This document shows positions 1 through 16,296 of a DNA stretch of 20,493 nt, piece after piece. Under the pieces are notes generated by a model. The model was given only the letters and a program-made list of their open reading frames with translations, was not told the DNA's origin and made no database searches. This stretch comes from a virus. The position numbers and the translations under genes were made by a program. Position 1 is the first letter of the stretch, and each line of letters opens with the position of its first letter. The DNA lies in IMG/VR virus record IMGVR_UViG_3300017971_000866, positions 1 to 20,493 of that record. One strand, written 5' to 3'.

Positions 1-353
1 GATGTTCCTGATGTTCCGGAAGTACCTGAATTACCAGAAGTACCTGATGTACCTGATGCTCCAGATGATCCACTTGTACCTGCTGCTCCTGTAGCACCAG
101 AACTACCTGATGTTCCACTTGCACCAGATGATCCGGATGTACCTGAATTACCAGATGTTCCTGATGTTCCACTTGCCCCTGAGCTACCTGATGTTCCAGC
201 TGCTCCTGTAGCTCCTGAAGAACCAGATGTACCACTTGCTCCACTTGATCCAGAAGTACCATCTGAACCTGATGTACCAGAAGTTCCTGAGGTACCATCT
301 GAACCAGAAGTTCCTGATGTACCTGATGTTCCGTGAGGAGGTCCTGGAGGTCC
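1..353 (-). repeat. Collagen-like GTS/GSS block 5, runs off the window
   Basis: At least 39 triplets from residue 1240. It opens with GPP GPP H, the only classical proline collagen triplets in the protein, then continues as GTS, GSD, GSS, GAS, GAT and GNS to the first base of the window. The true length is unknown. Confidence 0.93.
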
Positions 354-3300
354 AACCACTCCATCCATACGAGTAATTTTAAGAGTAGAATTAGTAAAAT
401 TACCAGATGCTGCACCAGCTTTTAATTCAAGTTGGATATAGTCATTTGCAGATAATTCTATAACCGATGTATCGCCAAATGTTGCTGTTCCTGTGCCACC
501 AGCAGCACGGTAAAATTCAGCATAACAAGAATCTATTTGTGCATCTACTCCATTTTTACTAATTCTTGATTCATTTGAACTAGCACCTGAATATGCTGAC
601 CAAGTAACCATATATATTCCATCTTCATAGACATATATCCTATCACCTGTAGTTGAATCAAAATTCAAAACTGTATCATCGTTTTCAACTAACAGCGTAT
701 CAAATGTAACTGCTTTCCAAGATGCCGTTGCTGCTTGACTTGTATCATAAACAGAAACAGATGCTAATGTTTCAAGCACACCTGTGCCAGAAGTTCCTGA
801 GGTTCCATCTGAACCTGATGTACCTGATGTTCCACTTGTACCTGCTGTTGGAACAGGAACACTAAAATAAACAAAACAAGATGTTCCATCTTGTGTTACT
901 CCGTCAAAATCTATTACAGATATATCAAATTCAGTATATGATGTTTGATCTGTAACGCCTTCTATTTCATAGTAACCCCAGATATCAGTATCATCTTTAT
1001 CAGTAAAATAAATTGTATTACCTTCTTCAAGAGATCCTAATAACCCTTCTCTATCAACTGAGTCTTCATCTGTATTGTGAATATAAATTTTAGATGCTAA
1101 TTCGTGGAATACAGAATTAAATTTAAACTCACCTGTTCCTGGAGGAGGAGTTGTATTTGCATTAAATACCCAAGAGCCAACGCCACCTGCTCCACCAGCT
1201 CCAGATGTACCTGATGTTCCACTTGTACCTGTAGCACCAGATGAACCTGATGTACCTGAATTACCACTTGTACCTGATGTACCGCTTGTTCCACTTACAC
1301 CTGATGAGCCAGAAGTGCCTGAATTACCTGAAGTTCCGGATGTTCCACTTGTACCTGAACCACTTCCAGACATACTAATTGTATCATCAAATCTCCAATC
1401 AACATAATCATTTCCATCATCTGTTGATCTTACTCTACCTTTGACTTCGTTTGAATAACCATCAGATGTTTGATAAATAACTGTAGCAATTGCTTTAATT
1501 TCAGGAAACAGAACTTCATCCAGCAGTAATTCGTGAATTTCTGTTCTTGCTCCTTGTCTTGCTTCCCCAATATTTCCATAATCTGATTGCCCCATTATAG
1601 CAATCATTGGTTCATCTTTTTCTGTTGTTGCAAATATATGACACAATACAAAGTCATTATTTGAAACTTGAGTTAATTGCCACGTTCCAGCTACATCTTG
1701 ATTATATGCTAACCTTGTTGCATCTGTTCCATCAAATGTTCTGACAGGGAATCCTGGATTATAGTAACGTTGCCATTCTTGACTATTCAACATATAGTAA
1801 ATTGGAAGATTACCTGTTGTATCAACAGCATCAATTGAATGATAAATATCTTCATCATACACTCCGCCAGAAGCAATGTTGAATTGTGCTGCTGAATCAT
1901 CATTACCCGAACCATCCACATCCATATTTTCAAGTCTTAAACCACTACTATATTGACATCCTTGTGTGAAGTGTAGATAATTATGTGTTACTGGAGACAT
2001 TACCTTACCGTGTCTTTCTTCCCCAACGTATATTGCCTCTTGTTCGGATACATCCCAATAGACAGCTGCCGCAATACATTTCAACCTTATGATCTCACTA
2101 ACTTGTGAAGTTGATGGATTAGCAACAGATTTCAATACTTGATCATCGTCATAGTAGATGATATGGATGCCTTCTGTATTGTCGATTTGGACAGAATCGC
2201 CTGATGTTTGATATCTTTCACCAAGAATATAGTAGTAAAAATCATCTACTGAAGCATCAATATGCATAGTTCTTGTTGAATCTTCCCAACGAAGAACAGA
2301 ATCAGTTCTGTTTTCAAAACCATTTTGACCCCAATCTTCTCGAGTAACAGCTATTTCTTCAATAGCATCATATATTGCTGTTCCTGTTAGCAATTCATTA
2401 CTGCCTGATGCTCCATATTCATCTCTGATTGTATCAACAGTTGGACCTGATGATAGTTTGATTCCCGATCCATTTGTTTCAAATACTTTAGATCCATCAT
2501 AATATAATTCAACACCACCACTTGGAGTAGCTTGTAACACTTTTTGAGTTCCATCTGTTGAATCAGTAACATTTAGAACTAATTTTCCATCGTCATATTT
2601 ATTGATGAAATTGATATCACCATCTGTGAAGTCAAGCAATAATCTACGATCATTGTTTTCTCCATAAATGGTTGCACTTGCTCCATTGGATACAAATGCT
2701 CTTTTACTATCTTCCTTATATAAATATAATCCCCAGGTTTTATCTTGCCATAAAGTATATCTAAGGGTATCGCCAGAATCTGTTCTACCAATAGATATAG
2801 GAGCATCTTCTGTTCTTCCAACAAGTGCTGTTTCAGACCCATTTCTATAAACCTTGAATAAATCATCTGTATCGTCTGATATTGAAAGTCCATCTTCTAA
2901 TGCTAATGCTCTTACAGCAGTAGAATCCCATAACAATCTATCTGTTTGTGCTTCTGTTGGGGTTGTTCCTGATGTACCGCTTGTACCTGATGTACCAGAA
3001 TCTCCAGCATCACCTGCTTGTGAGAATTGAAATGTTACACGAGTTTGATTATCAAATTGATCACCTTCAACGTGCTCAACTGGCAATACATAATATGCTC
3101 CACCACCTTCTGATGTAGAATCACCAACAATGTTATATACAGATACATCTCCTTCTGAACTATCAGCTTCTTGAAGGATTAATTGTCCTTTAACATCATT
3201 TGTAGAATTATCCCAAATTAAGATAAAATCTCTTTGATTTCCATTGTAAGCATCATCTTTATCAATATATAACAATGTGTTATTTGCAGGAATTAAAGTA

Positions 3301-4070
3301 TCAAAATGGAATCTTGAATTACTTGGTTGTGCTGAACCTGAAACTGCTTCATAAATCCATTGAACACCACCTCTATACCCATCATCACCTGATGTGCCAG
3401 ATGTTCCTGATGTGCCAGAATTACCTGAGCTACCTGATGTACCGTTTACACCAGATGAACCAGATGTACCAGCAGCACCAGATGAACCTGATGTACCTGA
3501 TGTTCCAGCAGGACCAACAGAACCAGATGAACCAGAAGTACCTGATGTTCCAGCATTACCACTTGAACCTGATGTTCCGCTTGTACCTGTATCTCCAGAG
3601 CTACCAGATGTACCACCTGTTCCGGAACTTCCACTTGAACCTGATGTACCGCTTACCCCAGATGATCCTGACGTACCAGATGTACCACTATCTCCAGAGC
3701 TACCAGATGTTCCACTTGTACCTGCAACACCTGAGCTACCTGACGTACCAGATGACCCAGATGTACCTGAATATGTGATTAAACCTCCATCTCCCTCTTG
3801 TGATGTATGGAAGTGTTCTCCAATATTTCCAAAACGTTCCCCTTTTACAACACCGTAATCAACACCTATAAGGTTAGACGTCAAATCATCGCTTGTACCT
3901 GTTAATTCTACAGTTGTTAAAGAAGTATATGTTGAAGATGTTATCGTACCATATTTAAGACCATCAACTCCACAGTCTGCTCTCACTCTTCTTCCATCAT
4001 TAAATATAAAAGTTTGATCACCTGCTACTGTGAAAGATGTAGAGTCTATAAATGTTGCTAAAATTGCCAT
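1..4070 (-). CDS. Giant collagen-like tail fibre protein, C-terminus beyond the window
   Basis: The frame opens at ATG 4070 (GGAGA eight bases upstream) and stays open to position 1: 1356 codons plus two bases, with the end outside the window. Residues 1-101 contain a GRRVR motif followed by SS-Y and TTV stretches, as in the N-terminal module of many phage fibres, which may anchor it to the tail. Five G-X-Y blocks follow (about 102-231, 353-370, 902-965, 1077-1097 and 1240 onward), made mostly of GTS and GSS triplets. Between them lie related modules (232-350 and 966-1076), a long fibre region (371-901) with a YYDGSKVFE motif common in phage fibres, and a C1q-like jelly roll (about 1098-1236). 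It is probably trimeric and binds the host surface, though the receptor is unknown. D-S-T occurs six times. The function is inferred from architecture and position. Confidence 0.85.
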   Translation of the reverse strand, partial: MAILATFIDSTSFTVAGDQTFIFNDGRRVRADCGVDGLKYGTITSSTYTSLTTVELTGTSDDLTSNLIGVDYGVVKGERFGNIGEHFHTSQEGDGGLITYSGTSGSSGTSGSSGVAGTSGTSGSSGDSGTSGTSGSSGVSGTSGSSGSSGTGGTSGSSGDTGTSGTSGSSGNAGTSGTSGSSGSVGPAGTSGTSGSSGAAGTSGSSGVNGTSGSSGNSGTSGTSGTSGDDGYRGGVQWIYEAVSGSAQPSNSRFHFDTLIPANNTLLYIDKDDAYNGNQRDFILIWDNSTNDVKGQLILQEADSSEGDVSVYNIVGDSTSEGGGAYYVLPVEHVEGDQFDNQTRVTFQFSQAGDAGDSGTSGTSGTSGTTPTEAQTDRLLWDSTAVRALALEDGLSISDDTDDLFKVYRNGSETALVGRTEDAPISIGRTDSGDTLRYTLWQDKTWGLYLYKEDSKRAFVSNGASATIYGENNDRRLLLDFTDGDINFINKYDDGKLVLNVTDSTDGTQKVLQATPSGGVELYYDGSKVFETNGSGIKLSSGPTVDTIRDEYGASGSNELLTGTAIYDAIEEIAVTREDWGQNGFENRTDSVLRWEDSTRTMHIDASVDDFYYYILGERYQTSGDSVQIDNTEGIHIIYYDDDQVLKSVANPSTSQVSEIIRLKCIAAAVYWDVSEQEAIYVGEERHGKVMSPVTHNYLHFTQGCQYSSGLRLENMDVDGSGNDDSAAQFNIASGGVYDEDIYHSIDAVDTTGNLPIYYMLNSQEWQRYYNPGFPVRTFDGTDATRLAYNQDVAGTWQLTQVSNNDFVLCHIFATTEKDEPMIAIMGQSDYGNIGEARQGARTEIHELLLDEVLFPEIKAIATVIYQTSDGYSNEVKGRVRSTDDGNDYVDWRFDDTISMSGSGSGTSGTSGTSGNSGTSGSSGVSGTSGTSGTSGNSGTSGSSGATGTSGTSGTSGAGGAGGVGSWVFNANTTPPPGTGEFKFNSVFHELASKIYIHNTDEDSVDREGLLGSLEEGNTIYFTDKDDTDIWGYYEIEGVTDQTSYTEFDISVIDFDGVTQDGTSCFVYFSVPVPTAGTSGTSGTSGSDGTSGTSGTGVLETLASVSVYDTSQAATASWKAVTFDTLLVENDDTVLNFDSTTGDRIYVYEDGIYMVTWSAYSGASSNESRISKNGVDAQIDSCYAEFYRAAGGTGTATFGDTSVIELSANDYIQLELKAGAASGNFTNSTLKITRMDGVVGPPGPPHGTSGTSGTSGSDGTSGTSGTSGSDGTSGSSGASGTSGSSGATGAAGTSGSSGASGTSGTSGNSGTSGSSGASGTSGSSGATGAAGTSGSSGASGTSGTSGNSGTSGTSGT
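363..779 (-). other. C1q/TNF-like jelly-roll domain in the fibre
   Basis: Residues about 1098-1236 have C1q-family landmarks: an early F/V strand, EDGIYMVTWSAY (compare G-x-Y-x-F-S), SSNESRISKNG (compare I-x-x-NG), a glycine-rich stretch, VIELSANDYIQLEL (compare L-x-x-GD-x-I) and a closing STLKITRM strand. In eukaryotes and some phage or bacterial proteins, C1q domains trimerise next to collagen stems; here collagen-like blocks lie on both sides. The assignment is by pattern only. Confidence 0.6.
780..842 (-). repeat. Collagen-like GTS block 4 (short)
   Basis: Seven triplets at residues 1077-1097 (GTS, GSD, GTS and GTG), joining module B to the C1q-like domain. Confidence 0.85.
843..1175 (-). 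repeat. Fibre module B (diverged copy of module A)
   Basis: Residues 966-1076: SWVF start, EFKF, KIYIHNTDED, NTIYF, YYEIEG, TEFDISVI and CFVYF. These landmarks follow the same order and roughly the same spacing as module A, about 1.9 kb upstream in the gene. The relationship was judged by eye. Confidence 0.55.
1176..1367 (-). repeat. Collagen-like GTS/GSS block 3
   Basis: About 21 triplets at residues 902-965, including GTS, GNS, GSS, GVS and GAT and ending in GAG GAG GVG before module B. It begins just after a serine/glycine linker (SGSGSG). Confidence 0.93.
2961..3014 (-). repeat. Collagen-like GTS block 2 (short)
   Basis: Six triplets (GDA GDS GTS GTS GTS GTT) at residues 353-370, linking module A to the long central region of the fibre. 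Confidence 0.85.
3021..3377 (-). repeat. Fibre module A (diverged copy of module B)
   Basis: Residues 232-350 of the fibre. The order is an aromatic start (VQWIYE), RFHF, LLYIDKDD, GQLIL, VYNIVG, then an aromatic-rich strand and F-x-F near the end. The same order recurs in module B at 843-1175. Each copy follows a collagen-like block and precedes a shorter one, so block and module look like one repeating unit. No family recognised. Confidence 0.55.
3378..3767 (-). repeat. Collagen-like GTS/GSS block 1
   Basis: About 43 consecutive G-X-Y triplets (residues 102-231 of the fibre), mostly GTS, GSS, GNS and GDS with very little proline. Synonymous codons vary (GGT/GGA, ACA/ACG/ACT, TCA/TCT/AGT/AGC), so the DNA repeat is imperfect while the protein repeat is strict. 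The reverse strand of this block creates a false Pro-Asp-Val reading frame. Confidence 0.95.
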
Positions 4071-4134
4071 TTTAATTGTCTCCGATATGTACGGTATTTA
4101 ATAGTTTGTTCGGGAGCCAGAAGTATTTCTAACT

Positions 4135-4827
4135 CTAAATTCCTGGTGGAGGTTTCAATTCTATGTATCTCTGAGGTACAGATGATTTAGCATATCCTCC
4201 TGAAAAAAGACCACCTCCAGTCGCATCAGGAGTAACTTTAATTTCTGTGCTATATACAAATAAATCAAAGTCTAACGTATTTGAATCGACTTTCTTCATC
4301 CCTGTAATTTTTCTTATATATGTTTCAGTTCTATTGATCCCATCAAACGCTATTACATAATTCATATTCAATCCAGCACCAATAATTGCAAAATAATTAT
4401 TGTCAGCATCCCTAACCGTTTCTTCTGTTTGAGAGTATAATCCATCTTCAACTACATTTAAATATCCTGATTCATTTGATGAAAATACAACATTTCCCGT
4501 TGAATCATATACATTTAGACCATATTCACCAGAAGGAACTATGTCTATTTCTTTATAAACAATCCAGTCTACATATCCAGTTGAATCTGATGCTATAAGA
4601 ATTTTATCATATACATCTCCTGATTTTACAAATCCATATGCAAGTGCTAAGAATGATTCTGCTTTTATAAATGCAATTCCGGAAGTTGCTATATCAGGAA
4701 TATCAACCTCAGTTAATTCTTCTTGTACGAATGATGTTCCGTGTGCGTGATATATATGATTTTTATATTTAGAATCAATCTGTACGATGTTATTTTGATT
4801 GACAACTCTTAATCCATAATCTACCAT
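4135..4827 (-). CDS. Tail-tip/fibre-associated protein, YGL-type
   Basis: A 230-residue protein with no signal peptide or membrane segment. It starts MVDYGLRV and repeats the pattern inside as EYGLNVYDSTGNVVF (about residue 115). The same YGL/FGL-x-DxxGN pattern occurs in the neighbouring 335-residue protein. It resembles a family of uncharacterised phage tail-tip proteins found next to J-like hubs (DUF6453-like, by memory only). The C-terminus is rich in Gly and Pro (ending PPPGI). It starts one base after the upstream gene's stop (TAA T ATG), so the two are probably translated together. A 64-base gap separates it from the giant fibre gene. It is probably a virion component of the tail tip; its exact role is unknown. 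Confidence 0.7.
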   Translation of the reverse strand: MVDYGLRVVNQNNIVQIDSKYKNHIYHAHGTSFVQEELTEVDIPDIATSGIAFIKAESFLALAYGFVKSGDVYDKILIASDSTGYVDWIVYKEIDIVPSGEYGLNVYDSTGNVVFSSNESGYLNVVEDGLYSQTEETVRDADNNYFAIIGAGLNMNYVIAFDGINRTETYIRKITGMKKVDSNTLDFDLFVYSTEIKVTPDATGGGLFSGGYAKSSVPQRYIELKPPPGI

Positions 4828-4828
4828 A

Positions 4829-5836
4829 TTACCACCCCACTATCGTTATCAAGGAATCTGCTGACCCTACAACTTCATAATCAGTTCCAAGAACATTCAC
4901 ACTTGAACTGTTTGCTGTCCAAGTAATTGTATTTCCAGATGTTTCAATGTTATGAGCTAATTCACCATTTGTGGCATCTAAAGGAATCGCAAAAGCAAAA
5001 TATCTATCTTCACCCATTGAAGAATCAAATGTATCAGATCCATCAACACCTGATTCTACTTCTCTTTGATATATAACTCTTGTAATTCTATCTGTTATAT
5101 CTAAGGTAATGTTTCCGGTGGAATCATAACAACGCAAACCAAACTTACCTGGATCAATTCCTGTTGTTACTCTTATGTAGAATGTGTCTATATAAACTGT
5201 AGCTTCACCAATAACTCGTTCTGGTGGATTGTTATCAAACCATTCTTCTAGAAATTCTAATGCTTCATGTGATGGATTTTCAGGATCATAGTATATAAAA
5301 CTTGTCCCATCTATAAAATACATATCTCCTGATGTAGAATCATATATAAATGGAGGACCTTGAATAAATCCAGTTGGATTCATTAATGCTGTACAATCTA
5401 AATGTATATTATTTATGTCAGTCCATTCCCAGTTGCCTGCACCAGGTAAATTCCCTTTATCAGTTATATCATACCACAATGTCTCTGGAGATGTATTTGT
5501 AACTTCTGTTGAAGTATAACCAGCATGCCCAACACCATCTCCAGCATTTAGATATAAATATAAACTAAAATCTGTTGAATCTGCTGTTTGTTTATATGTT
5601 ACACCAACTTCTACTTTTTCAATATAATCACCAGCAGTTGAATCTAATGTATGATTTGAAGCATAGATTTCTTCTGAAACAAAATACTCTTCTTCTGAGG
5701 TTGAATCAGACACTAAAGTACAAGAAGCATATGTTTCAGCAGTACCATCTACACAATTTGAAAGATTATCCCAATCAAATTGATCAGGATTACTTCCTTG
5801 TGATGCTGATCTATACTCTCCGGTATAAACTGTCAT
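4829..5836 (-). CDS. Putative tail fibre/tip protein
   Basis: A 335-residue acidic, beta-rich protein. Residues 1-150 look like a jelly-roll module (VEVGVTYKQ, FSLYLYLNAGDG, then W-Y-D and NIHLDC stretches). Residues about 231-335 hold FGLRCYDSTGNITLDITDR, a motif seen in phage tail-tip proteins near J-like hubs, followed by IP-LDATNGELAHNI. It shares the YGL/FGL motif with the 230-residue protein downstream. D-S-T occurs five times, the densest of any gene here. Its ATG shares one base with the upstream stop (TAATG), showing coupling. It probably sits in the distal tail; host binding is possible but unproven. Confidence 0.7.
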   Translation of the reverse strand: MTVYTGEYRSASQGSNPDQFDWDNLSNCVDGTAETYASCTLVSDSTSEEEYFVSEEIYASNHTLDSTAGDYIEKVEVGVTYKQTADSTDFSLYLYLNAGDGVGHAGYTSTEVTNTSPETLWYDITDKGNLPGAGNWEWTDINNIHLDCTALMNPTGFIQGPPFIYDSTSGDMYFIDGTSFIYYDPENPSHEALEFLEEWFDNNPPERVIGEATVYIDTFYIRVTTGIDPGKFGLRCYDSTGNITLDITDRITRVIYQREVESGVDGSDTFDSSMGEDRYFAFAIPLDATNGELAHNIETSGNTITWTANSSSVNVLGTDYEVVGSADSLITIVGW

Positions 5837-6930
5837 TATGATAGTTTCCCCAATTCAACTCTTAATGTTCCAGCAGCATCATATACCTTCAATACATCAT
5901 TATCAAGATCAAGTCTCACTCCGCCATCATCAAAGTTTGAAGATTGTACGACACCTGCTGTAACTAATCCAACATCAGCAGAAAAGGCAGATAATGTCTC
6001 TACTTCGATATCTTGTGCTTTTACAATTTCATTAAAACGTAACTCGCTTAACTCGAAATTGTGGTCATTTATGTCCGTTTCTGGCTCTAAAAAGAAAATT
6101 CTGAAGTATTTTGCTGCTGTTCCCTTTAAAACACTCAGACCAATTCCACCATCAATATCCATACGTTCATCTGTATATCCATAGTAGTTTGCTTGAGCAT
6201 TTTCATATGACATTTGAACAAGTGACTCTGACGTAGAATCATATCCAAGATAAGTCCAGTCTGTACCATTTAATGATTGTCCAAAGAAAGCAGCTATAAC
6301 ATTAGATCCAGTTGTATCAAAATCTCCATATACAAATACTTTCTTGATCATCCTTTCAACAGGAAATCTATATTGAATCCAATAATTAAGTTCTGAGGTT
6401 GAATCTGTTATAACTAAATCAGATGTTGTATCTATTGTTATATAATCATCATTATCCCCATTATACAAAACTTTTAGATTATCTGGATTCCTTAATGATT
6501 TATCGGTAATGACAATATCTGTTGGTAACTTTCTATCGTACCTTATTTGTTGCTCAATGACATTTTCTGCTTGAACAATACCAGAGTCAAACTCTAAGTT
6601 ATCTGCCTCGTACTGCAACTCTGCTGGCGTTTTAACTCGTATAGTTCCGTTGTCGTTTGTTAAGATATATCTATCATCCCAAGTACATTGAACAAGCTGC
6701 GTTACATAAGCAGTTGAATCAAGTAAATGAAGAATGAATCCTTCTTCTGCTGATTGTTCAACATAAAATTCTGTATATGCTGTTGTATCAGATACATTGA
6801 CCATTGATGTTCCATCATATCGTAAAACGTCAATACTTGCTCCAGCAGGTAAAGGTCCAACATCAATACCAAGTGATGCATCACCCGTAATGCTTAGGAT
6901 TCTATCTCCATTTAAAGTTACGATTGCCAT
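5836..6930 (-). CDS. Tail protein with discoidin-like and J-type C-terminal modules
   Basis: A 364-residue protein. Residues about 145-300 resemble an F5/8 type C (discoidin) fold, often carbohydrate-binding: WIQYRFP, KKVFVYGDF, GTDWTYLGYDST, KYFRIFFL and a closing ELRFNEI strand. Residues 305-364 (ETLSAFSADVGLVTAGVVQS, then LDLDNDVLKVYDAAG) match the small repeat found at the C-terminus of lambda J-like proteins, whose consensus is roughly SADLG-I-aG-S followed by a D-L-D strand. This suggests a former J C-terminal part now encoded separately, docking at the tail tip. The ATG overlaps the previous stop by one base, with a GAGGAAG ribosome site. The sugar-binding role is inference. Confidence 0.7.
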   Translation of the reverse strand: MAIVTLNGDRILSITGDASLGIDVGPLPAGASIDVLRYDGTSMVNVSDTTAYTEFYVEQSAEEGFILHLLDSTAYVTQLVQCTWDDRYILTNDNGTIRVKTPAELQYEADNLEFDSGIVQAENVIEQQIRYDRKLPTDIVITDKSLRNPDNLKVLYNGDNDDYITIDTTSDLVITDSTSELNYWIQYRFPVERMIKKVFVYGDFDTTGSNVIAAFFGQSLNGTDWTYLGYDSTSESLVQMSYENAQANYYGYTDERMDIDGGIGLSVLKGTAAKYFRIFFLEPETDINDHNFELSELRFNEIVKAQDIEVETLSAFSADVGLVTAGVVQSSNFDDGGVRLDLDNDVLKVYDAAGTLRVELGKLS

Positions 6931-7313
6931 TATTCTTCCTCTTTATGCTCAAGTAATTTTTCATCAATGTATGGTTCTATTTGTTTCATTTTATCTGAAA
7001 TAGCAGCTACACATTTGAGACTATTTTCAAAGTTTATCAATAAGTTAGTTATTGATCCTAATCTTTCTGCTTGTGATGCTGTTTCAAGTGTAACTTGCTC
7101 TTGAAGTCCTCTTAATGCTCCTTCAAAGTAACCTAGATGTTTTGCCCAATAAACAGGAATATATTCATTTGTTTTTGTAATCTCTGGAACAGCAAGAGGT
7201 TGTCCTGTTTTTTCATCTCGCCTTTTTTCCATTGTGATTTCTACAGTTAGACAATCCTCCACAACTGTTCTGATTGTTTCTTCGATCCATTTTTTATCAT
7301 TTTTGCTTAACAT
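6930..7313 (-). CDS. Small helical protein of unknown function
   Basis: 127 residues from ATG 7313. It is mostly helical and charged: an N-terminal helix (KKWIEETIRTVVEDCL), a middle segment with YIPVYWAKHLGYFEGALRGL, and a C-terminal amphipathic helix ending in EHKEEE. I do not recognise a family. The start is uncertain: an in-frame TTG at 7337 would add eight residues, but neither start has a strong ribosome site (a weak GGGG precedes 7313). It overlaps the acetyltransferase end by 17 bases and is coupled to the next gene by TAATG. It could be a chaperone or minor tail component. Confidence 0.7.
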   Translation of the reverse strand: MLSKNDKKWIEETIRTVVEDCLTVEITMEKRRDEKTGQPLAVPEITKTNEYIPVYWAKHLGYFEGALRGLQEQVTLETASQAERLGSITNLLINFENSLKCVAAISDKMKQIEPYIDEKLLEHKEEE

Positions 7314-11516: not shown

Positions 11517-12190
11517 TATCCTTCCTTTTGCCTTTCTTCTGGAGTTGGTCCCCACCAGATATTCTTGTTCATAAAATCTGGCAAGAATCTAAAACCACCA
11601 AAATTAGCTGTATTTGCGTAACTCTCACAAGTCTCATAAAATCTATTACAATCAGTTTCATCGCCAGTATATTGACACCTCGGACCTTTAAATCGTCTAT
11701 ATCTACATAACGCTGGATGTCTTGCGAATGATTTATCTGACCATCTTACAAACTTTGATACAACATCAAATCTAATTTCTGATTCATCAAGTTCATATGG
11801 ATCAAGATAACCTTCAAATATCATAACAGCATCAATGACTTCAAATTGATTATTAAATACAACTCTATATAGTCTACAGAGTTGATCATCTTCCATATCT
11901 TCCCCGAATAATGCTGTCATTACTTGATTCTTGTTATCAATTTTTATTGACATATTATCAACAATGGTTCCGGTGCTGTATGTTATATTTTCTACAGTAA
12001 ATTGAGCAGAATCAAAACGTACAAGACTGGTCGAATCACCTGTTAGATATGTATCACTTATATATTGTACCGTATCAGCGTCAGTATATCTATACCAAGT
12101 ATAGTCATTACTTTGAAATTCAAGTAAGTTAAAGAACATAAACTCACTTGAGCCTACTTTGTCTATATAATCTTGTATTATATTTCTCAT
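11516..12190 (-). CDS. L: Minor tail protein L-like, Fe-S tail-tip protein
   Basis: 224 residues. The C-terminal third has four cysteines, C162, C172, C181 and C188, in the order CRYRRF-GPRCQYTG-TDCNR-ETCESY. This spacing matches the cluster-binding region of lambda gpL, which holds a [4Fe-4S] cluster. The N-terminal domain (to about 150) is beta-rich with FDSAQ, IKIDN and IFEGYLDP, as in the same family. Lambda L joins the tube end to the J hub. It sits between M- and K-like genes as in lambda. The start follows the M-like stop by one base (TAA T ATG). It contains one D-S-T. The extra Cys at about 105 is probably unrelated to the cluster. Confidence 0.88.
   Translation of the reverse strand: MRNIIQDYIDKVGSSEFMFFNLLEFQSNDYTWYRYTDADTVQYISDTYLTGDSTSLVRFDSAQFTVENITYSTGTIVDNMSIKIDNKNQVMTALFGEDMEDDQLCRLYRVVFNNQFEVIDAVMIFEGYLDPYELDESEIRFDVVSKFVRWSDKSFARHPALCRYRRFKGPRCQYTGDETDCNRFYETCESYANTANFGGFRFLPDFMNKNIWWGPTPEERQKEG
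11520..11527 (-). promoter_or_regulatory. Ribosome binding site fixing the K-like start
   Basis: AAGGAAGG on the minus strand lies just before the TAATG junction and supports ATG 11516 over the upstream ATG 11555. Confidence 0.6.
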
Positions 12191-12191
12191 A

Positions 12192-12797
12192 TTATTCGTC
12201 CAAATGTAATCCTTTTAATTGTACTCCTGCTGTTCTTACAATATCATAAAAACTTGACTTTGAGAAAACATCCATATCAAAACGACACAATATTTTTAAT
12301 TGTCCTGTGAAATCAGCTGTTAATTTGATGCCTTCACCTACAGGTACAAAGAATATTGCTTGATCTCCACCATCTACACCACTACCATCTGATATATAGT
12401 AATCACCCGCTGATGTAGCATCTGCTGCTTGATTGTATATAGCATAATCTCCATATACAGTCTGAGCACTTGTATTGGCTCCCGGAAGATCAAATGTTGT
12501 TTCTACACCATCACCTGTTGCGAAATAAAGACCTTCATAATCATCGTAATCAATATCAATCCAATGAAATGATCCGTATTGTCCTTGTCTTGCTATATAA
12601 AAATTATATAATTCAGCCATTTCTTCTCTTTCACATAGAGAATAATCCATAGCAACATCAATTTTTGGAAATTGTTGTTTTCTTTTTCTTTGTTCTGTTG
12701 CTTCAGAATCATAATTTGAAAACAATGTTTTAAATCTAAAATTCATCTCAACAGGTTTTCTATATGGAACATCTGCATATGATGGATATAGTGCCAT
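12192..12797 (-). CDS. M: Distal/minor tail protein M-like
   Basis: 201 residues. The start (YADVPYRKPVEMNFRFKTL), EQRKRKQQFPKIDVAMDYSL and ELYNFYIARQGQYGSFHWID fit the first half of DUF2460/lambda M-type tail tip proteins, where a stretch ending AR-x-G-x-x-x-x-F is usual. The second half (YFATGDGVETTFDLPG) is another common segment of tail tip proteins. It lies between tape measure and L, as M does in lambda. Its ATG shares one base with the tape measure stop (TAATG). It probably forms part of the ring at the tube end. Assignment rests on order plus weak motifs. Confidence 0.65.
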   Translation of the reverse strand: MALYPSYADVPYRKPVEMNFRFKTLFSNYDSEATEQRKRKQQFPKIDVAMDYSLCEREEMAELYNFYIARQGQYGSFHWIDIDYDDYEGLYFATGDGVETTFDLPGANTSAQTVYGDYAIYNQAADATSAGDYYISDGSGVDGGDQAIFFVPVGEGIKLTADFTGQLKILCRFDMDVFSKSSFYDIVRTAGVQLKGLHLDE

Positions 12798-15381: not shown

Positions 15382-16028
15382 TTACCTCTGTTGTGCTTCT
15401 TTGTTTTTAGATAACATAAAAGAAACAAGGAAGGTTGTAATTTTTTTAAGATTAACATCATTTACAGGTAAACCTGCTATCTCAAGTGTCTTACACACAC
15501 CATTCAATGATAATGATTTCATTCCATCGACCATATAATTCATATAATCGAACAGAACAGTTACGATTTCATAATTTTCTGGGATTACTGTCACAAATCC
15601 ACAAGCAACACAATCTGGTGTTTTACCAGACATCATTGCTTTAGTTGCTTTGCATCCCTCGCAATCCAGTCCAGCTCCTAACCAGTCTGCGAGGGTTTCG
15701 AGTTTTTTAATTCTTTATTACTAATAACAGCATCTCTCATTTTACCCGCTTCATTGATAATGAATACAACAAACTCTTGATCATAGTTATAGACTAATTC
15801 TTTGTTTTCTTCATTACATTCCATCGGGCCATCCTCATCTTCAATTCCTTTCCAATCTATAAGAACATAATTAAAGACATTCCACATCTGATCCAAACCA
15901 ACTTCTTCAGCTGTTGGAATTTTGGTGAGAGATAAAAGTTTGAAGGGACGTATTTTTGCTTTTACATCTTTTTCATCTGGGTGTGTTTTCCAAGCTTCTT
16001 TTGTATTGTTTTTATTAAACTTTCTCAT
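15382..16028 (-). CDS. GT: G-T tail assembly chaperone fusion via -1 frameshift
   Basis: Two reading frames are joined by a -1 shift at A AAA AAC (15708 to 15702). Codons 1-109 come from the G-like frame; the shifted frame then reads C at 15702 again and continues LETLADW to the stop at 15382, giving 215 residues. As in lambda gpGT, the T part should contact tail tube subunits and G the tape measure. The T part carries C123-x2-C126-x13-C140-x2-C143-G, a zinc-finger-like pattern. The Met at 15636 inside the T frame is not a likely start: it lies within this motif and has no ribosome site. The frame upstream of it is open back to the slip site. It is placed just before the tape measure, as in lambda. 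Confidence 0.9.
15656..15708 (-). promoter_or_regulatory. Programmed -1 ribosomal frameshift signal
   Basis: The slippery heptamer A AAA AAC occupies 15708-15702 in the G frame (TTA AAA AAC). Six bases (TCGAAA) follow, then a perfect 8-bp stem CCCTCGCA/TGCGAGGG (15695-15688 with 15663-15656) with a 24-base loop that contains the G stop codon. X XXY YYZ heptamer, spacer length and GC-rich stem all match known -1 signals. A pseudoknot is possible but not evident. Confidence 0.92.
15678..16028 (-). CDS. G: Tail assembly chaperone, G-like
   Basis: 116 residues when no frameshift occurs, ending at TAG 15678. The middle (IDWKGIEDEDG, then ECNEENKELVYNYDQEFVVFII) matches the common chaperone pattern of tail genes between tube and tape measure. 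AAGGAGAGG is seven bases upstream within the 93-residue gene, which it overlaps by 14 bases. It should wrap the tape measure before tube assembly. The slip site lies only seven codons before its end. The ratio of G to GT cannot be read from sequence. Confidence 0.88.
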   Translation of the reverse strand: MRKFNKNNTKEAWKTHPDEKDVKAKIRPFKLLSLTKIPTAEEVGLDQMWNVFNYVLIDWKGIEDEDGPMECNEENKELVYNYDQEFVVFIINEAGKMRDAVISNKELKNSKPSQTG

Positions 16029-16296
16029 ATGGCCTCTCCTTTTTGAAGTATTTTTTCAGGAGTCTTGCAGTAGGTAGACCACATTTGAGGCAGTTGGGAG
16101 CCTTTCCACTCATCATTGATTTCGTTAATATACAATCCTTACACGTCTGACCGTTAGGACGACTTAAATACCAAGTAAGAAAGTAAAGAAAATCAACAGG
16201 ATCAAACTCCGAAAAACCAAGAGAGATTCTATTTTCGATACCATCTTCATCGACATATAGAATCTCTCTTTTGTTTTCTTTAATTTTCGTAGTCAT
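16015..16296 (-). CDS. Small Cys2-Cys2 zinc-finger-like tail assembly protein
   Basis: 93 residues. An N-terminal beta-like part (to about 30) is followed by helix DFLYFLTWYL and C52-x2-C55-x13-C69-x2-C72-G. The motif TKSMMSGKAPNCLKCG is nearly the same as TKAMMSGKTPDCVACG in the T part of the chaperone fusion, with identical cysteine spacing, so the two are probably paralogues. GGGAGGT is eight bases upstream of ATG 16296. It lies between the tail tube gene and G, and its end overlaps G by 14 bases. It is probably a third chaperone or regulator of tail assembly; metal binding and function are inference. Confidence 0.75.
   Translation of the reverse strand: MTTKIKENKREILYVDEDGIENRISLGFSEFDPVDFLYFLTWYLSRPNGQTCKDCILTKSMMSGKAPNCLKCGLPTARLLKKYFKKERPYEKV

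Follow-up and report, generated by a model that had tools for sequence, protein, structure and literature searches.

In phage lambda, the tape measure protein is bound by many copies of G and a few copies of GT, both attached through G, while the T part binds the tail tube subunit, whose polymerisation it initiates, and both proteins leave the finished tail (PMC5009743, PMC4493119). The G:GT ratio is critical in lambda as well as in TP901-1 (PMC5009743, PMC4493119). In Acinetobacter phage Loki the frameshift site is AAAAAAC (PMC5313236), which is also the heptamer of the locus described here, and in phage VarioGold a DUF1799 gene is found between the tail assembly chaperone and the tape measure (PMC9658991). 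The molecular role of the T domain is poorly known because T is small, rare and fused to G. Neither a tail chaperone having a T part with four cysteines arranged in two CxxC pairs (Cys4) nor a free-standing paralogue derived from T was found described in the literature searched, the scope of which falls short of most subscription papers, including the core lambda GT papers.

Organisation of the G/T locus

The window (the whole stretch of 20,493 nt analysed here, from an IMG/VR virus record) carries on its minus strand a siphovirus head-tail module, in which the genes occur in the order tail tube, 93-aa gene, G, T and tape measure (Table 1). The match of G to the tail assembly chaperone family PHROG 313 covers residues 53-106, and the reading frame of T remains open from the slip site to position 15382, an arrangement that is conserved in relatives. 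Based on these sequence marks, namely the gene position, the G domain and a slip site followed by an open -1 extension, the G/T locus most likely encodes a chaperone of the lambda G/GT type. The tail tube candidate has no confident family match in PHROG or Pfam.

Table 1. Features of the tail chaperone locus in the window
Feature	Position	Strand	Remarks
Probable major tail tube protein, 140 aa	16348..16770	minus	Position and likeness to the gene of relatives; directly upstream of the free gene
Free-standing Cys4 protein, 93 aa (P0004)	16015..16296	minus	Own ribosome site GGGAGG; with its homologues, 15 lineages in all
Cys4 motif of the free protein, CKDC-x13-CLKC-G	16078..16143	minus	C52, C55, C69, C72, W42, P67 and P75 invariant (13 rows)
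Shine-Dalgarno AGGAGAGG of G	16033..16040	minus	Located inside the free gene; G probably coupled to it in translation
Gene G-like tail assembly chaperone, 116 aa	15678..16028	minus	PHROG 313, E 5.8e-6
Slippery heptamer A AAA AAC, in the G frame	15702..15708	minus	Same heptamer in the free-copy genomes examined that have the G/T junction
Hairpin, likely frameshift stimulator	15656..15695	minus	6 nt past the slip site; z about -3.6
T extension, -1 frame (G + T = GT)	15382..15708	minus	Open reading frame after the slip site
Cys4 motif of T, CEGC-x13-CVAC-G	15598..15663	minus	C17, C20, C34, C37 and N46 invariant (21 rows)
Helical core of T, not in the free protein	15385..15582	minus	Model pLDDT 87; matches tail assembly / tape measure chaperones
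Tape measure protein, 860 aa	12797..15379	minus	PHROG tape measure 9e-28; PF09718 above cut-off; directly downstream of T

The possibility that T starts internally was rejected, since its in-frame ATG codons (15636 and 15633) are located past the second cysteine and are not preceded by a ribosome site, and initiation there would remove two of the four cysteines. Because these codons fall within the motif, the first two cysteines of T can only be made via the frameshift.

Elsewhere in the window, a large open-ended ORF of tail fibre type, in which collagen-like GTSGTSGSSG repeats are numerous, occupies positions 3-4097 of the minus strand, and the long Pro/Val-rich ORFs found on the plus strand within the same region (e.g. 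3394-3858) correspond to its antisense shadow. The tripeptide DST, often as DSTS, DSTG or DSTA and mostly encoded by GATTC(A/T)AC, occurs 17 times in five minus-strand ORFs of the tail module (3-6942 and 11519-12214) and once in the capsid ORF; the tail-module count exceeds what composition would predict, according to a rough estimate rather than a formal test.

Homology of the two Cys4 modules

The sequence-only reading had reported that a C-x2-C-x13-C-x2-C-G motif with a conserved core is duplicated between the 93-aa protein and T. Both copies are indeed present where it had placed them, with identical spacing between the cysteines: W42...C52-KD-C55-x13-C69-LK-C72-G in the free protein and W10...C17-EG-C20-x13-C34-VA-C37-G in the T extension, the core common to both being TK(S/A)MMSGK(A/T)PxC. 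The distance from the Trp to the first Cys is unequal, with 10 residues in the free protein versus 7 in T. Identical residues account for 13 of the 22 aligned positions and only four of these share a codon, two of them being Met, for which there is no codon choice; the codons do differ, as had been remarked, and the duplication is therefore not a recent DNA copy.

When compared with T alone, the free protein gave a BLASTP E value of 1e-9, and when searched against the 20-kb record it retrieved only itself and T, the latter at 3e-7. The profile (HMM) comparison that had been proposed was carried out with hhalign and aligned the free and T families over 41 columns with 98.4% probability (p 9e-15). 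The free-copy profile also retrieves T from the genomes in which free copies occur, at 1e-5 to 1e-12, and detected no third copy of the module in these genomes. The likeness is confined to ca. 40 residues, consisting of a Trp-bearing helix followed by the Cys4 part, and nothing in the free protein corresponds to the C-terminal core of T. Judged from these comparisons, the motifs of the two proteins are homologous. CxxC pairs are common and T and the free protein are unlike outside the 40 residues, as would be seen if the likeness had arisen by chance or by convergence among generic zinc knuckles; such an origin is nevertheless scarcely credible, since the significance lies far past chance in the BLASTP, record and profile-profile searches, residues other than cysteines (T, SG, P, CG) are also common to both proteins, and the match of T by the free-copy profile is reproducible across independent lineages. 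For practical purposes it is refuted by the profile results together with the trees (see below).

The AlphaFold model of T is all-helical (pLDDT 87, pTM 0.72) and, as modelled without metal, has two helices that each begin with a CxxC, followed by a three-helix core; that of the free protein is poor (pLDDT 58). Compared with predicted viral structures (BFVD, Foldseek), the T model matched mostly tail assembly or tape measure chaperones, such as those of Loki, F20 and Seurat, with probabilities of 0.97-0.99 but E values of only 0.1-0.5, the top match (E 0.007) being a protein without a name. This match is no more than suggestive of a T fold like that of the T parts of other phages. No CxxC pairs occur in T of Loki, Seurat or F20, which indicates that the Cys4 module was added to the beginning of T; what the free gene reproduces is this added module along with the helix ahead of it. 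Searches of the PDB returned background only, both by sequence and by fold, and neither the free protein nor T reached the threshold of a Pfam or PHROG family; an LRV_FeS (PF05484) assignment of T fails the gathering score, with 18.1 bits for a cut-off of 27.

Distribution and history of the free copy

The family was gathered by scanning IMG/VR, and subsets were used in place of profiles of the full sets, which were too divergent to scan the collection with. Matching the window at 100% over 1201 bp, L003 proved to be the same phage and was excluded as an independent lineage. The free copy was found in 15 distinct lineages of uncultivated phages (the window, L004, L006, L007, L009, L011, L014, L015, L031, L033, L038, L040, L041, L060 and L061), and the Cys4 motif is present in T of all 14 in which T is readable, the contig of L015 ending before T. 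The gene order free copy, G, T thus recurs across these 15 lineages, T being beyond the contig end in one, which answers the proposal to look for the same gene pair in other phages. At least 10 other lineages have a Cys4 T, but their fetched DNA contains no free copy (L016, L017, L018, L019, L021, L024, L025, L054, L055 and L062), a few others display a degenerate Cys spacing in T (L020, L022, L057 and L058), and no free copy was found together with a cysteine-less T among the lineages with readable T. From these figures, the free copy appears confined to genomes whose T has the module. A cysteine-less T was seen with a single G match (L026), which spans only 23 residues and sits on a long branch. 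Relatives were found neither in species genomes nor in named phages, where a tblastn search of 50,697 phage records with the three proteins gave no match.

The four cysteines are invariant in the 13 free copies and 21 T parts aligned. Neither of the outcomes that the sequence-only reading had named as refuting, a lack of structural similarity between the two motifs or cysteines that vary in homologues, came about. In genomes with available flanks, the free copy is placed between the tail tube and the tape measure genes. HNH-like ORFs or fragments occur beside the tail tube gene in L011 (2944-3405), L006 (3305-3442) and L026 (3130-3771), which suggests homing endonuclease traffic at that spot. 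Free copies of L006, L014, L031, L033, L041 and L060 carry, ahead of the common start Met, an N-terminal extension that ends in (R/K)xDDRIMSP or a close variant and that may conceal an internal start; the N-terminal extension of the window's free copy is unrelated to this type.

At all 13 junctions measured, the free gene and the start of G overlap by 1-29 nt (14 nt in the window, up to the stop of the free gene), with the ribosome site of G inside the free gene. An overlap is also found in L060, and the two genes are therefore probably translationally coupled. Free copies are under purifying selection, with a dN/dS of about 0.1-0.25 (dN 0.12-0.37 versus dS 0.9-2.2), a rough value as dS is near saturation. 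At the C-terminal end, the free protein has a basic stretch, LLKKYFKK, and in family searches it gave weak sub-threshold matches to assorted zinc ribbons; as Cys4 proteins are often nucleic-acid binders, these features would suit a protein that took another job, such as a translational or late regulator that binds DNA or the G leader RNA, or a minor virion part. The basic end, however, overlaps the G ribosome site, so that its conservation partly arises at the DNA level, no family match of the free protein passes the threshold, and the free copy always lies between the tail tube gene and G, and only where T has the same module. We consider such a change of function unlikely.

Trees of the module group the free copies in one clade (support 100/100 and 99/100), which a long stem branch separates from the T modules. 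This single clade points to one old duplication, and with both copies conserved in relatives it agrees with the earlier remark that the duplication is old or under selection. In the G tree, phages with and without the free copy fall on opposite sides of one branch, save for the long row L026. The free copies and the T parts of the phages that carry them mostly have 13 residues between the CxxC pairs and a TK/R...SG..P core, whereas T parts of no-copy phages mostly have 12 residues and lack this core. The spacing and core common to free copies and the T of their phages suggest that the duplication occurred within the free-copy lineage; an older duplication followed by loss, an alternative timing, is not rejected, a tree constrained to group the T modules of free-copy phages giving a p-AU of 0.27. 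Past the AAAAAAC site, free-copy genomes (the window, L004, L006, L007, L011, L033 and L041) tend to have a stable hairpin, with z down to -3.8, and no stable hairpin was seen past the slip site in the no-free-copy genomes examined (L016-L021). The frameshift level may differ between the two groups.

Possible role of the free copy and comparison with known systems

The two invariant CxxC pairs suggest that a single metal ion, probably zinc, would be bound by the four cysteines. By analogy with lambda, G would coat the tape measure and T would recruit tail tube subunits (PMC5009743, PMC4493119). The free module may be made in a larger amount than GT, and would probably be in excess over it because no frameshift is needed. 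It could bind the same kind of partner as the module of GT, either the tail tube subunit or the complex of G/GT with the tape measure, or alternatively pair with the module of GT itself, and it would keep its partner soluble and then hand it over. The free paralogue is most likely a co-chaperone that acts in trans and is made together with G. As far as sequences can tell, the homology of the modules, the single clade of free copies, purifying selection and the overlap with the start of G argue in this direction, as do the location between the tail tube and tape measure genes, the restriction to genomes with a Cys4 T and the predicted resemblance of the T fold to the T parts of tail chaperones. 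Some points argue against it: the model of the free protein is poor, the conservation of the C-terminal end of the free protein is partly due to the G ribosome site coded there, outgroup phages assemble tails without a free copy, which is thus not needed in general, and a common motif is no proof of a common partner. Taken as a whole, a lambda-type G/GT locus with a Cys4 module on T and a free copy of that module that assists tail tube assembly in trans as a co-chaperone has, in our opinion, an even chance of being correct.

The main rival, raised by the sequence-only reading, is that the free module competes with GT: in excess over it, the free module would occupy the site that the T module needs, limit the number of GT or tail tube subunits active at any one time and thereby tune the G:GT balance, a ratio known to be critical in lambda and TP901-1 (PMC5009743, PMC4493119). 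The free copy is devoid of the T core, as expected of a competitor, and is coupled to G translation; sequence cannot separate this behaviour from that of a co-chaperone. The free copies have nonetheless diverged as a group and possess invariant residues of their own (P75 and the GLPTARLLK stretch) that a mere decoy would not need, and we regard competition as quite unlikely.

The suggestion of a three-part chaperone system is a reasonable reading given the 15 lineages in which free copy, G and T follow one another, T being beyond the contig end in one. The motif of T is predicted to be made of helices and not of the ribbon of a classical zinc finger. In its most specific form, the third component would be a metal-binding adaptor, duplicated from T and made with G, that acts in trans to control how tail tube subunits are loaded onto the tape measure, thereby freeing some of the T function from the frameshift; this we hold to be possible, if doubtful. 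It would show that the two-part chaperone of long-tailed phages is extendable by duplication. A free-standing T submodule, in which the cysteines are invariant and whose presence or absence among phages is clear-cut, also offers a handle on T, as it can be expressed, deleted or mutated apart from GT.

Among known systems, predicted T structures like the T model are those of the Acinetobacter phage Loki tail assembly chaperone and of the tape measure chaperones of Escherichia phage Seurat and Enterobacter phage F20, three phages in which no free copy is seen by annotation and T has no CxxC pairs. DUF1799 (PF08809), a T-like gene that adjoins G in some phages, gave weak, below-threshold matches to 2 of 16 T members (best E 0.05), and T is not a DUF1799 according to the Pfam gathering score. 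With lambda gpG/gpGT, the locus has in common a G gene ahead of the tape measure, a -1 slip site at the 3' end of G, a T extension and a tail tube gene upstream. It differs in that a Cys4 module opens T, none being present in the T parts compared (Loki, Seurat and F20, lambda T itself being outside the comparison), and in that a free paralogue of this module precedes G.
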